A DNA stretch of 64,000 nucleotides from Thermus arciformis (lineage in GTDB: Bacteria; Deinococcota; Deinococci; Deinococcales; Thermaceae). A program made the position numbers and the translations under genes. Below, one piece after another: positions 18,029 to 22,739 of the stretch (positions are counted from its first letter, which is position 1; each line of letters starts with the position of its first letter). Location: the NCBI RefSeq assembly GCF_900102145.1, contig NZ_FNBC01000008.1:1-64000 (forward strand), given 5' to 3'. A model generated the notes under the pieces. That model had not been told where the DNA came from, did not search any database, and worked only from the letters and a program-made list of their open reading frames with translations.

Positions 18029-19094
18029 GGGGGGCTTTCTGGTCTCCGACCCCTACGGGGTCTACGAGAAGCCCCTGGCCCTCACCGAGGGCGGGCTTTT
18101 CCTCCTCTCCCTCATGGAGGGGAGGACCCTGGAGGAGGTGCAGGAGGAGGTGTTCAAGCGCCACGGGGTCCTGGTGCCGAGGAAGGAGCTGGAAGAGCTG
18201 GCGAAGGCCCTGGAGGAGGCGGGCCTCCTCCTCACGGAAAGGGTGGAGGCGAGGCTTAGGGAGGAGGAAGAGAGGCTCAGGCGGGAGCGGCCCATGCGCC
18301 TCGCCGGGCTTTCCTACCCCCAAGGGGAGCGGGAGGCCCGGGCCTTCCTCGAGGCCTTCCGGGCGAGCTACCCCGGGGAAGGAAGGGAAGCGGAGGTCCT
18401 CCTCATGCCCCACCTGGAGCCAAGCCGGGTCCCCGAGGTCTACGGGGCGGCCCTCGCCGCCTTGGAGAAGACCCCGCCCCCTGAGCGCGTCTACCTGGTG
18501 GGGGTCGCCCACAGGCCGCTTAAGGAGAGGGCCGCCGCCCTCCCCGTGCCCTTCCAGACCCCCTTCGGCCCCGCCCTGCCGGACCTCCCCGCCCTCCAGG
18601 CCCTGGACGCCCTCCTTCCCTTTGAGCTCTTTAACACGCCCCTCGCCTTCCGGGAGGAGCACAGCCTGGAGCTTCCCCTCTTCTTCCTGAAGGGGCGGTT
18701 CCCCGAGGCCCGCGTCCTTCCCCTCCTCGTGGGGCGGCGAAGCCCGGAGCTCGGGGAGGCCCTCAAGGTGGTCCTGCGGGACTTCCCGGGGCTTCTCGTC
18801 CTCGCTGTGGACCTCTCCCACGTGGGGCCCCGCTTCGGGGACCCTCCCCTCACCCGCCCCCTGGCGGAGGAGGCGAGGCGGCGGGACCTGGGCTTCCTGG
18901 AACGGATCGCGGAAGGGGCGCCGGAGGCCGCCCTCGCCCTCCTCGGGGAAAACCCCACCCGCATAGACGGGGTGGAGGTGGTGGCAAGCCTCCTCCCCCT
19001 CCTCCGGGGAAGGAGGGGCGAAGTCCTGGCCCACCGCCTGGACCTCGAGGCCCCCACCCTAAGCGCCGTGGGGGCGGGGACCCTGGTCCTCTAA
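17982..19094 (+). CDS. MEMO-family protein with N-terminal PqqD/winged-helix-like domain
   Basis: A 370-residue protein in two parts. Residues about 105-370 are a MEMO (AmmeMemoRadiSam protein B) domain, a fold related to non-haem-iron dioxygenases: RLAGLSYP (AGxFYP), MPHLEPSR (PHAGY), EEHSLELPLFFL (EHSLExQLPFL) and VDLSHVGPRFG (DLSHYG) are all recognisable. The Tyr and Gly of the PHAGY motif are changed. Residues 1-100 (TEGGLFLLSLMEGRTLEEVQ and onward) look like the small PqqD/RRE winged-helix domain that binds peptides in RiPP pathways. Start is GTG 17982 with weak ribosome-binding signal. Function is unknown; no radical SAM or AMMECR1 partner is adjacent. Confidence 0.75.
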   Translation: MEGRLRLREPQITPVEGGFLVSDPYGVYEKPLALTEGGLFLLSLMEGRTLEEVQEEVFKRHGVLVPRKELEELAKALEEAGLLLTERVEARLREEEERLRRERPMRLAGLSYPQGEREARAFLEAFRASYPGEGREAEVLLMPHLEPSRVPEVYGAALAALEKTPPPERVYLVGVAHRPLKERAAALPVPFQTPFGPALPDLPALQALDALLPFELFNTPLAFREEHSLELPLFFLKGRFPEARVLPLLVGRRSPELGEALKVVLRDFPGLLVLAVDLSHVGPRFGDPPLTRPLAEEARRRDLGFLERIAEGAPEAALALLGENPTRIDGVEVVASLLPLLRGRRGEVLAHRLDLEAPTLSAVGAGTLVL

Positions 19095-19123
19095 CCAGGA
19101 CCCCAGATTTGGAACCGCGCGAA

Positions 19124-19155
19124 GGCCCGGGCGCCGAACCGCCCGGGCCCCTTTT
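19124..19155 (+). terminator. Terminator after the MEMO-family gene
   Basis: A perfect 10-bp G+C stem (19124-19133 with 19140-19149) with a 6-nt loop is followed by CCTTTT. It ends the cca-MEMO transcript and insulates the CRISPR locus. The next 100 bp (19156-19255) hold nothing I can recognise. Confidence 0.85.
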
Positions 19156-19255
19156 CTGGAAGCGCTCCTTTGGGAAAGGGCCCGGAAGGTGGGTGGAAAG
19201 GCGCGCCGGGGCCTGCGTGGAAGCCTCCTAGCGCGAGGGGCACAGACCTTCACCC

Positions 19256-19365
19256 ACGACAATCCCCTTACGGGGCTCAATTCCTCGCAACGAGAAGAAG
19301 GACGCCCAAACCCTCCGCCGCGAGCTTCTGTCGCAATCTCCTTACGGGGCTCAATCTCTTGCAAT
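19256..19365 (-). CRISPR. Distal, degenerate CRISPR remnant (2 repeats, 1 spacer)
   Basis: Two 36-bp repeats (19256-19291 and 19330-19365) flank a 38-bp spacer. In the transcribed (minus) orientation the inner one reads AAGAGATTGAGCCCCG and ends GGATTGCGAC, differing from the leader-proximal repeats at a few positions. The outer one has decayed at both ends, as is usual for the trailer end of an array. The remnant is separated from the main array by 398 bp that carry a lipoprotein gene. Confidence 0.85.
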
Positions 19366-19391
19366 TCTCCTGGGGGAGCGTTTGCGGGCCA

Positions 19392-19748
19392 TCAGAGCCG
19401 TTCAAAACGCTTGTCTATGAGTCCATAGAGGCTATCTGTGAACTCGCCATAACATGTGATGATGGCCCCCTGGCCCTGATTGAGAGCGCTACAGGTAGCT
19501 TTAGCCGGACTTGTAGCTCCGAGGGCGCGGAACGCGATGAGGGGATACGTGATGAGCTCCACCGTGGTTTCGGACGCTCGGACCACTTGCCAGCGCTCAA
19601 ACCATTGGTGGGGCTGAATGGAAGGAGCTTCGGCCATCAGATAGGCGATCAGCTCCTGGGCCGTTGCCTTGTAGACGGGACGGGGTTGAGTTACTGAAGG
19701 TGCGCAAGCGCTCAGGGCCAACACGAACAAAAGCCATATCCGCCGCAT
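19392..19748 (-). CDS. Small lipoprotein of low G+C, located inside the CRISPR locus
   Basis: A 118-residue predicted lipoprotein: MRRIWLLFVLALSAC is a signal peptide ending in a lipobox with the modified Cys at about residue 15. The mature part has no domain I recognise; it has two further Cys residues (ATCSALNQ and IITCYG), which might form a disulfide. AGGAGG lies 5 nt before the ATG at 19748, which decides this start over the GTG at 19754. The gene has clearly lower G+C and less biased codons than all neighbours, suggesting recent transfer. It is bounded by CRISPR repeats (19365 and 19764) and reads in the same direction as the array. Only 15 bp separate its ATG from the repeat upstream. 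Confidence 0.75.
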   Translation of the reverse strand: MRRIWLLFVLALSACAPSVTQPRPVYKATAQELIAYLMAEAPSIQPHQWFERWQVVRASETTVELITYPLIAFRALGATSPAKATCSALNQGQGAIITCYGEFTDSLYGLIDKRFERL

Positions 19749-19763
19749 ATTCACCTCCTACAT

Positions 19764-20027
19764 GTCGCAATCCCCTTACGGGGCTCAAGCTCTTGCAACG
19801 GGAGAGGATTGGGTACACCAATACCTACCGCCTCAACCTGTCGCAATCCCCTTACGGGACTCAAGCTCTTGCAACCCGTGGAGGAGTCGCTTAGTTCCGC
19901 GGGCCTCGACCCCGTCGCAATCCCCTTACGGGGCTCAAGCTCTTGCAACGGTGGAGGTGATGGAGATGCGGCGGTGGCAAATGGTGTCTGAGTCGCAATC
20001 CCCTTACGGGGCTCAAGCTCTTGCAAC
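19764..20027 (-). CRISPR. CRISPR array, leader-proximal part (4 repeats, 3 spacers)
   Basis: Four 36-bp repeats lie at 19764-19799, 19840-19875 (one mismatch), 19914-19949 and 19992-20027, with spacers of 40, 38 and 42 bp. On the minus strand each repeat begins GTTGCAAGAGCTTGAGCCCC and ends GTAAGGGGATTGCGAC, with the internal palindrome CCCC-TTAC-GGGG. This is a variant of a repeat widespread in Thermus. Transcription from the right is inferred from repeat decay at the left end and from the ATTGCGAC-type 3' terminus that becomes the crRNA 5' handle. No cas gene is in the window. Confidence 0.95.
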
Positions 20028-20263
20028 TCTACCCCCCTCAGAACCCCGTCCTGGACGGCACCGCTAGAGGGGGGGGTTTGTGAGAAAGATGAAGCTTGGA
20101 ATATGCACACGGCGAATAACGGGGTTTTTCGGGGGTTTGGGCCGATGGCAAGCCACAGGAGGAAGGGGCGATGAGAAGGGGAAAGCGCATATTCGCCTTC
20201 GGCAAGAGGAAAACTGGCTTTCAAGGTCCCCACCCGGAGGTCCGGGTTAGGGGGAGTATAGCA
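20028..20263 (-). promoter_or_regulatory. Putative CRISPR leader with an extended -10 promoter
   Basis: The segment adjoining the first repeat is richer in A+T than its surroundings and has no convincing gene. On the minus strand TGC-TATACT (20263-20255) is an extended -10 element that would start transcription near 20248, about 220 nt before the first repeat. TTGACC further upstream is spaced too widely (23 bp) to be its -35. Leader status is inferred from position and array polarity. Confidence 0.45.
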
Positions 20264-20501
20264 CACACCGCAACGTTGGGCCAGGTCAAAATTTCGGTGA
20301 AGAAAGGGCTCCTGCACTGAGCTTTACTTTTCAAAGTCCAAAGAAAGCCGGTTGCATCGTAATTTTGCTGACAAGTATAGCCAAGGCCCGCCCTATCGCC
20401 AGAGGTAAAAGGGCGTGTACTCCCCCCGTCCCAAAAGGGCCGCCTTCAGCCGCTGGGCCTGCACTCCCCCAGGGGGTTGCAGAACCCCAGGGGGTGGGCA
20501 C
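20264..20501. other. Non-coding stretch between CRISPR leader and rnr
   Basis: No credible gene is seen. Near the end of rnr, 20466-20497 forms an imperfect hairpin (CCCCC...GGGGTT/AACCCC...GGGGG) that could help end the rnr transcript, but no T run follows on the minus strand. Confidence 0.4.
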
Positions 20502-22739
20502 TTAGCGGCGCCGCTTCCTGCGGGCCCGGGTCCTCGCCGGGCGGGACTCTTGGGACTCCTTAGGGGTCCACTCGCCGAAGTAGATGGTGTTCACCGTGGC
20601 CCGTTCGGGACGGGTGTCCCGGGTCCTGTCCTTGGGGGGTCCTACCACTTTGCGCATATCCTCCTCCTTTTCCTTCTTCCTTTTGCCTGGGGTCTTGACC
20701 TCCCCTTGGGCTTCCACGTAGGGCACCAGGTCCACCTGGCGAAGCCTGGGGTTGGCGGCGGCGATGACCACCTCCATCTCGTCCCCCAGGCGGATCCTCT
20801 TCCCCTTGGGGCCAAGGAGGGCCATGGCCTCCTCGCTGTAGGTGTAAGGCCCCAGGGCCTCGAGGCGCACCAGGCCCTCCACCCCGTTGGGCAGGGTCAC
20901 GAAGGCCCCGAAGTTCGCCACCCCCGTGACCTTCCCCAAAAAGCGCTCCCCCACGTGGAGCTCGGCCCACTTGGCCATGTAGTACTTGGTGAGCTCCCGC
21001 TCGGCGGCCTCGGCCTTCCGCTCCATCTCCGAAGCGTGGTCGGCGACGGCGGGGAAGGCCGTAAGCCACCTGGCCTTCCGCCCCTGGGTGAGGGTGCGGC
21101 GCAAGGCCGCCTTCAGCACCCGGTGGACCACCAGGTCCGGGTAGCGGCGGATGGGGCTCGTGAAGTGCAGGTAGTGCTCCATGGCGAGGCCGAAGTGGCC
21201 CAGGTTCTCCGCGGCGTAGCGGGCGAGGCGCAAGGAGCGGAGGACGAGGGAGGCCACCACGGGCTCCTCCGGGCGGCCCTTGGCCTCCAGGAGGACCCGC
21301 TGCAACGCCTTGGAGGAGACCTCCTCGGGAAGACTGTAGCCGAGGCGGGCCAGGGCCAGCCGTAGCTTGCCGTAGGCCTCCTCCAAGGGCTCCTCGTGCA
21401 CCCGGTAGAGGCCGGGAAGGCCCTTTTGCACCAGGTGCTCGGCCACGAGCCGGTTGGCGAGGAGCATGAGCTCCTCAATGAGGCTTCTGGCCTTGGGCTC
21501 CGCCTGGGGGATGAGGTGGAGCACCCCTTCCTCCACCTCCACCTTCACCTCGGGGAAGCTGAAGTCCAAGGCGCCCTCCTCCAGGCGCTTCTCCCGCATC
21601 CTCTGCGTGAGGTCCAGAAGGAGGCGCAGGTCCTCCGCCAGGAAGGCGTGCTCCTCGGGAAGGCCGAACCCCTCGGCGAAGGCCTCCACCTCGGTGTAGG
21701 TGAGGCGGGCCACGCTCCGGATGACCCCTTCCCGGAAGCGGACCCGCTTGACCTTTAGGTCCTCCGTGAGGTCCACGAGGACGGAGAGGACCAGGCGGTC
21801 CTCCCCCGGCCTCAAGGAGCAAACCCCGTTGGAAAGCCTTTCGGGAAGCATGGGGAGGACCCGCCCCGGGAGGTAGACGCTGGTGCCCCTTAGGAAGGCC
21901 TCCTGGTCCAGGGGGCTTCCCTCCTTCACGTAGTGGGAGACGTCGGCGATGTGGACCCCGATGCGGTAGCCCCCGGGCAGGCGCTCCACGTGGATGGCGT
22001 CGTCAAAGTCCTTGGCGTCCACCCCGTCTATGGTGAAGACGCGAAGGCCCCTGAAGTCCTCCCGCCTCGCAAGCTCCGCCTCGGGGATCTCCAGGGGGAT
22101 GGCCTCGGCCTCCCTCAGCACCTCCTCGGGGAACTCGGCGCGAAGGCCGTACTTGGCGATGACGGCCTCCGTCTCCGTCTCGGGGGCCTCCCCCTCCCCC
22201 AGGTACGCCAGGAAGGTCCCGTAGGGGCGCTTGCCGTAGTGGACCTGGACCACGATGCGGCTTCCCCGCTTCAGGCCCTCGAGGCCCTCGGGGGAAAGCC
22301 TGAGCTCGGGAAGCCCGGGCTCGTCGGGGAGGAGGAGGGCGTACCCCTTGCGGAAGTCCAGCCTCCCCACCACCCGCTCCCGCGCCCGCTTGAGGACCCG
22401 CTCCACCACCCCCCAGGGCCTCCCGTCCCGCCCCGGGGGCATGAGGCGGGCCTCCACCAGGTCGCCCGGCCAGGCGTCCTGGGTGTACCCCGGGGGGATG
22501 AAGAGGTCCCCCTCGGGGAGGCGGACGAAGCCGTACCCGTCCCGGTGGAGGCTTAGGGGCCCCTGGACCTTCTGGGGGAGGGCGTAGCGGCTTCCCCGCT
22601 TCTCCAGGAGGCCTTCCCGCACCAAGGCCCCGAGGTAGGCCTTGGCCTCCCGCTTGGAGAGGCCGAAGCGGTGGAGGATCTCCTCCAGCCGGTGGGGCCT
22701 CCCGGTTTTCTTGAAAAACTCTAGAAGGGTTTCCTGCAT
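20502..22739 (-). CDS. rnr: Ribonuclease R
   Basis: A 745-residue 3'-5' exoribonuclease of the RNase II/R family. The N-terminus is a winged-helix domain (residues 1-60), followed by cold-shock domains (LSLHRDGYGFVRLP at about 65), the RNB catalytic domain with FTIDGVDAKDFDDAIH (the four metal-binding Asp residues, about 240-255) and HYLHFTSPIRRYPDLVVHR, an S1 domain (FLGKVTGVANFGAFVTLPNG), and a Lys/Arg-rich tail. The basic tail and helix-turn-helix-like start favour RNase R over RNase II. ATG at 22739 is preceded by AGGA and comes 1 bp after the aminotransferase stop. Confidence 0.95.
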   Translation of the reverse strand: MQETLLEFFKKTGRPHRLEEILHRFGLSKREAKAYLGALVREGLLEKRGSRYALPQKVQGPLSLHRDGYGFVRLPEGDLFIPPGYTQDAWPGDLVEARLMPPGRDGRPWGVVERVLKRARERVVGRLDFRKGYALLLPDEPGLPELRLSPEGLEGLKRGSRIVVQVHYGKRPYGTFLAYLGEGEAPETETEAVIAKYGLRAEFPEEVLREAEAIPLEIPEAELARREDFRGLRVFTIDGVDAKDFDDAIHVERLPGGYRIGVHIADVSHYVKEGSPLDQEAFLRGTSVYLPGRVLPMLPERLSNGVCSLRPGEDRLVLSVLVDLTEDLKVKRVRFREGVIRSVARLTYTEVEAFAEGFGLPEEHAFLAEDLRLLLDLTQRMREKRLEEGALDFSFPEVKVEVEEGVLHLIPQAEPKARSLIEELMLLANRLVAEHLVQKGLPGLYRVHEEPLEEAYGKLRLALARLGYSLPEEVSSKALQRVLLEAKGRPEEPVVASLVLRSLRLARYAAENLGHFGLAMEHYLHFTSPIRRYPDLVVHRVLKAALRRTLTQGRKARWLTAFPAVADHASEMERKAEAAERELTKYYMAKWAELHVGERFLGKVTGVANFGAFVTLPNGVEGLVRLEALGPYTYSEEAMALLGPKGKRIRLGDEMEVVIAAANPRLRQVDLVPYVEAQGEVKTPGKRKKEKEEDMRKVVGPPKDRTRDTRPERATVNTIYFGEWTPKESQESRPARTRARRKRRR

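Follow-up and report, generated by a model that had tools for sequence, protein, structure and literature searches.

In Thermus arciformis a gene for a small lipoprotein lies between two repeats of a CRISPR array, in the place of a spacer. The foreign coding DNA found in arrays is usually a transposon; here a complete gene that is not a transposon fits exactly between two repeats. We consider it fairly probable that a foreign gene was captured once, at the old end of a type III array that is an orphan, and that it is a passenger there, with read-through from the leader providing its transcript. The array is in the window, by which we mean the whole stretch of 64,000 nucleotides that was analysed, on contig C46 of a draft assembly (2.44 Mb in 88 contigs). 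Positions 19256 to 20027 contain six repeats of 36 bp with the type sequence GTTGCAAGAGCTTGAGCCCCGTAAGGGGATTGCGAC; each is on the minus strand and scores above the gathering score of the Rfam model CRISPR-DR36 (RF01346). Their start-to-start distances are 74, 434, 76, 74 and 78, and the spacers are 38-42 bp, with the exception of the 398-bp interval in the fourth spacer's place. The features, listed from right to left, are:

20028-20290, minus strand: CRISPR leader, upstream of R1 (outer limit approximate)
20255-20263, minus strand: extended -10 sequence TGCTATACT, in the leader, conserved
19992-20027, minus strand: repeat R1, leader-proximal, 0 mismatches, sequence GTTGCAAGAGCTTGAGCCCCGTAAGGGGATTGCGAC, RF01346 at 53.4 bits
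19914-19949, minus strand: repeat R2, 0 mismatches, RF01346
19840-19875, minus strand: repeat R3, 1 mismatch, RF01346
19800-19839, minus strand: spacer S3, 40 nt, ordinary and phage-derived, directly upstream of R4
19764-19799, minus strand: repeat R4, upstream bound of the insert, perfect (0 mismatches), RF01346 at 53.4 bits
19366-19763, minus strand: insert replacing a spacer, 398 bp, between R4 and R5
19754-19759, minus strand: Shine-Dalgarno sequence AGGAGG, recognised from sequence, 4 nt past R4 and 5 nt ahead of the ATG
19392-19748, minus strand: small lipoprotein gene, 118 aa and stop, lipobox LSAC, a member of the family described below
19330-19365, minus strand: repeat R5, downstream bound of the insert, 3 mismatches to the consensus, predicted hairpin lost
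19292-19329, minus strand: spacer S5, 38 nt, between R5 and R6
19256-19291, minus strand: repeat R6, terminal, 8 mismatches to the consensus

The array is an orphan type III array. The features expected of a type III array in Thermus, namely regular repeats, the 3' tag ATTGCGAC and a leader, are all present. Hits for Cas1 are on C81 and C18 and those for Cas6 and Csm on C68, with none on contig C46; some other arrays are orphans too. Spacers S1 to S3 are ordinary, and one of them, S3, matches the Thermus phages Lalka8, 27a and 27b (92.5% identity, E=5e-8, blastn), which indicates that the array once worked. The target of S3 in the Lalka phages is a stretch without an annotated gene, with a cluster of replication genes on one side and a small hypothetical gene on the other. 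No match to phages was found for S5. The decay of the repeats jumps across the insert, from 0-1 mismatches in R1-R4 to 3 in R5 and 8 in R6.

The first-pass annotation had described a coding insert between two repeats, with an AGGAGG and a lipobox reading frame, in the orientation of the array and 15 nt from the upstream repeat. The repeat matches and the reading frame at 19392-19748 confirm this description. On the minus strand R4 is followed by ATGT, AGGAGG, TGAAT and then the ATG at 19748 (15 nt past the repeat), and the encoded N-terminus, MRRIWLLFVLALSAC-APS..., is a signal peptide with a lipobox (LSAC). The automatic open reading frame call starts two codons earlier, at a GTG at 19754 that falls within the Shine-Dalgarno sequence. 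The stop codon ends at 19392 and is followed by just 26 bp before R5, on which ground a second leader within the insert was rejected. With the Shine-Dalgarno sequence 4 nt past one repeat and the stop 26 nt before the next, the placement looks less random than a passenger would predict. An insertion sequence or MITE was also rejected as the identity of the insert: both bounding repeats are complete, there is no transposase, and the 118-aa lipoprotein is the sole gene. The insert had further been said to have much lower G+C than all its neighbours. This holds against the flanking genes (0.571 versus 0.69-0.71, with a GC3 of 0.63 versus 0.90 and 0.93) but not against the leader side, where the G+C of 20100-20399 is equally low (0.540).

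No family model in Pfam, PHROGs or NCBIfam matched the protein. In a first whole-genome search, three other genomes of the family had weak matches that covered almost the full length, and a profile made from these matches found relatives in 25 of the 111 genomes of the phylum search, the window's genome included, the weakest of them covering little beyond the signal peptide. On an HMM built without the query, the full query scored 53.0 bits, whereas 2000 shuffles in which the signal peptide was retained reached 21.9 at most. The mature part alone scored 38.8 bits, and thus also groups with the family. Because this HMM separates the query from the shuffles, we regard the gene as a real lipoprotein gene that is conserved at the family level. 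In the family alignment (A2) the signal peptide and lipobox are followed by Ala-Pro (LSAC-AP), the C and P columns are invariant, and the query fits. A single-sequence AlphaFold model of the protein was poor (mean pLDDT 55), and a fold search from it was therefore of little use; it gave no match at E <=0.001, with Flpp3 among the weak ones.

Among 27 Thermus genomes the gene was found only in that of the window; one weak match elsewhere in this set is to the signal peptide of a longer, unrelated protein. The low GC3 of the gene and its absence from the other 26 Thermus genomes point to horizontal acquisition. A donor was not found in plasmids, phages, viral contigs or GTDB contigs. Neither blastn of the insert nor tblastn of the protein against plasmids and phages gave anything useful (the blastn search gave nothing, and the tblastn result was the same for the homologue from genome G008), and there was no match when viral contigs were searched with the protein and with the family alignment or when GTDB contigs were scanned with the protein. 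The homologues in G001, G002, G008 and more distant genomes share with the window's protein its length, lipobox and a profile match over the whole length, but their sites are ordinary chromosomal ones or belong to mobile elements, whereas the window's gene is within an array. Those of G001 and G002 each follow a cytochrome c gene. The nearest mobile-element homologue is that of G008 (L078:7857-8249), which is found among genes for ArdC, DUF6788, a DnaN-like protein and an IstB/DnaC-like ATPase, on a contig that also has TrbC, a TraG/VirB4-type ATPase, a T4SS coupling protein and a serine recombinase. Our best guess is that the product is an accessory envelope lipoprotein, perhaps one borne by a mobile element.

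We found no sign of a link between this gene and CRISPR elsewhere. The surroundings of the homologues are free of CRISPR-like repeats in a test that does detect the array in the window. The pattern of a repeat end followed by a Shine-Dalgarno sequence and an ATG was found in the 27 Thermus genomes only at the window's gene. A looser pattern of a repeat plus Shine-Dalgarno sequence had no match in viral contigs and two in GTDB contigs with the same repeat core, both of which are chance Shine-Dalgarno sequences in ordinary spacers. In a list of 126 Thermus array intervals, compiled solely from repeats scoring above the Rfam cut-off, 122 are unremarkable, a 148-bp one probably reflects a missed repeat, two, from different genomes, contain the same IS1000-like insertion, and the last is the interval with the window's gene; the only intervals longer than 150 bp are thus the window's insert and those with an IS element. 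The idea of a recurrent CRISPR cargo found no support in these searches, with one case in 27 Thermus genomes, homologues away from repeats, no second repeat-adjacent gene and no second genome with a similar gene bounded by repeats. Nor were homologues found in Thermus phages, plasmids or other CRISPR loci, where they had been suggested as worth seeking, although one shares its contig with conjugation genes. The first-pass annotation had named homologues regularly found at non-CRISPR sites, with the flanks seen here, as evidence against its reading. They are indeed at such sites, but with flanks that differ from the window's. Nothing here supports a system of 'CRISPR cargo', and as there is neither a CRISPR link nor a second case elsewhere, a one-off capture is the best reading.

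How the capture occurred can be suggested from the repeats and from the same site in relatives. A small lipoprotein gene would have reached the Thermus chromosome through horizontal transfer and come to lie in the leader-distal, old part of the array, between the perfect R4 and the decaying R5. Most likely, recombination rather than normal spacer acquisition brought the gene together with a relic array, R5-R6, on one side and an array with a leader, R1-R4, on the other. We favour recombination because of the sharp step in repeat decay and because the array site is reused in relatives; this route and the function of the product are both inferred. In the nearest relative, G048, there is an array with the same repeats at the same chromosomal site, and in G041, another Thermus species, a separate array with the repeat GTTGCAAAAGTGGCTTCCCCGTAAGGGGATTGCGAC (L028:2675-3610) is at the same site after the same gene. 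The site therefore seems to be a recurrent home for arrays. G048 was rejected as an example of the empty site, as the array there runs out in a remnant of an IS1000-like element that is fused to the left flank, and part of the array is lost; because of this loss, its lack of the gene gives no date for the insertion.

A specific version of this recombination is that no insertion of the gene into an array took place as such, but that the gene had the relic R5-R6 downstream of it when the array with the leader, R1-R4, arrived later just upstream. The contrast between decayed R5-R6 and intact R1-R4 would be expected in this case, R4 is perfect though terminal repeats are often degenerate in the arrays here, and both G048 and G041 have arrays at the same site, that of G041 with another repeat type. 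The distance of only 4 nt from R4 to the Shine-Dalgarno sequence, however, would mean that the native promoter was removed exactly at the gene, and R5-R6 have no leader of their own, and we think this version unlikely, if worth keeping in mind. An outsize acquisition, in which Cas1-Cas2 took a 398-bp fragment as a spacer and the repeat was duplicated, is somewhat less probable still. Known Cas1-Cas2 complexes measure spacer length, and the other spacers here are just 38-42 bp. The complete repeats that flank the insert are what integration at a repeat would produce, and a cas1 gene does exist next to a type III array in another part of the genome, but R4 and R5 differ at 3 positions. In addition, a fragment taken at random would seldom contain a whole gene: a complete GGAGG with an open reading frame of at least 100 aa, on either strand and with spurious frames counted, occurs in about 1% of this window's 398-bp stretches.

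The captured gene is probably read from the CRISPR leader promoter. The leader to the right of R1 is identical at 99 of 101 aligned positions to that at the same site in G048 and at 95 of 102 to that of the genome's own array on C81, and it also matches one beside cas1 on pTT27 of T. thermophilus HB8. Transcription therefore runs from right to left. At the place corresponding to its extended -10, the C81 leader has TGCTATAAT. A search of 18900-20600 for sigma70-type promoters found none, and so none between the leader and the gene, which bears out the earlier remark that the gene has no visible promoter of its own. Comparable transcription has been described for the type III arrays of T. thermophilus HB27c, with the exception of one without a leader (PMC7515739). 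From the lack of an own promoter, the -10 in the leader and the transcription of type III arrays in HB27c we infer that the gene would be part of the pre-crRNA, transcribed by read-through from a leader promoter about 500 nt upstream. The product would be exported and lipid-anchored, with an accessory role in the envelope.

Processing of this transcript could affect the gene on one side. The same genome encodes Cas6 and a Csm (III-A) operon on C68 and Cas1 beside a type III array. A Cas6 cut in R4 would leave 5'-AUUGCGAC-AUGU-AGGAGG-UGAAU-AUG, with AUUGCGAC, the 8-nt tag that type III crRNAs of Thermus carry, ahead of the Shine-Dalgarno sequence. The proposal that crRNA processing releases the mRNA is plausible on this 5' side; release on the 3' side is unlikely because R5 has lost its predicted hairpin (-3.8 versus -11.7 kcal/mol). 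An RNA fold of the 5' end of the mRNA, made with 37 C parameters to assess access to the Shine-Dalgarno sequence, points neither way. We think it quite improbable that the gene is expressed within the pre-crRNA with a tagged 5' end freed by Cas6 in such a way that the lipoprotein is made in step with the crRNAs.

A related form of such coupling would be a cargo whose expression is controlled by leader transcription and Cas6 processing, for example a surface lipoprotein for phage exclusion alongside crRNA immunity. The sense orientation, the exact fit between repeats, the gene's own Shine-Dalgarno sequence, the lack of its own promoter and the conserved leader promoter would all suit this, as would the match of the neighbouring spacer S3 to the Thermus phages Lalka. 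A role in superinfection exclusion has been proposed for lipoproteins of IN93-like Thermus prophages (PMC11437467). The lipoproteins of this IN93/Tsatsa group are, like the window's protein, small, exported and foreign in Thermus, but they have a prophage context, whereas the window's protein is in an array and has no match in any phage record. That there is a single case in 27 Thermus genomes, that no such gene with this repeat core is found in GTDB or viral contigs, that the homologues are independent of CRISPR, and that R5 without its predicted hairpin would leave the 3' side unprocessed all weigh against a cargo, which we consider quite improbable. The known CreTA system (PMC9458426) is also a genetic element by CRISPR repeats that may depend on CRISPR processing, but it consists of CreT, a small RNA that is toxic, and CreA, a guide that resembles a crRNA and comes from ectopic repeats, whereas here a lipoprotein gene is within the array. 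An assembly artefact, with collapsed repeats and the gene misjoined, for example at R4, a perfect 36-bp repeat, is very improbable: contigs C70, C79 and C81 do begin or end exactly at a repeat, but the variant R5 has no second copy among the genome's listed repeats, the R4 side would remain a CRISPR repeat even if the join used R4, and both the leader side and the left flank match the array site of G048.

Foreign coding DNA also interrupts arrays in the form of insertion sequences, as with IS1000 (IS110 family) in T. thermophilus; IS1000 splits the repeat and carries a transposase, whereas both repeats are complete and transposase is absent at the window's insert. IS1000-like elements enter type III repeats at a fixed point, after nt 32 of 36, and the junction reads ...GGGGATTG / IS / GCGAC + spacer, with the remainder of the repeat and the spacer beyond where that end survives. 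Such entries are seen in about five arrays: L047:3222-4100 (C81:45221-46100), L051:6319-6354 (C43), the 3' end of L095 (C68), L018 (at the window's site in G048) and L107:3087-4360 (HB8 pTT27). The type III repeat thus looks like a preferred target of these elements. The 32 bp that IS1000 and the repeats have in common have been explained as IS1000 segments recruited as CRISPR (PMC6352166). The junctions suggest the reverse, as they would be simpler to explain by an element that inserts into repeats.

The observation of a gene in the place of a spacer is right and unusual, and the gene is most likely a one-off passenger that is probably expressed from the leader. If it is a mere passenger, it would be a curiosity of array decay. 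It nevertheless provides a natural test of two questions, whether an mRNA can be supplied by a pre-crRNA and whether processing by Cas6 affects its translation, and it shows that acquired genes can be present in the decaying ends of arrays.
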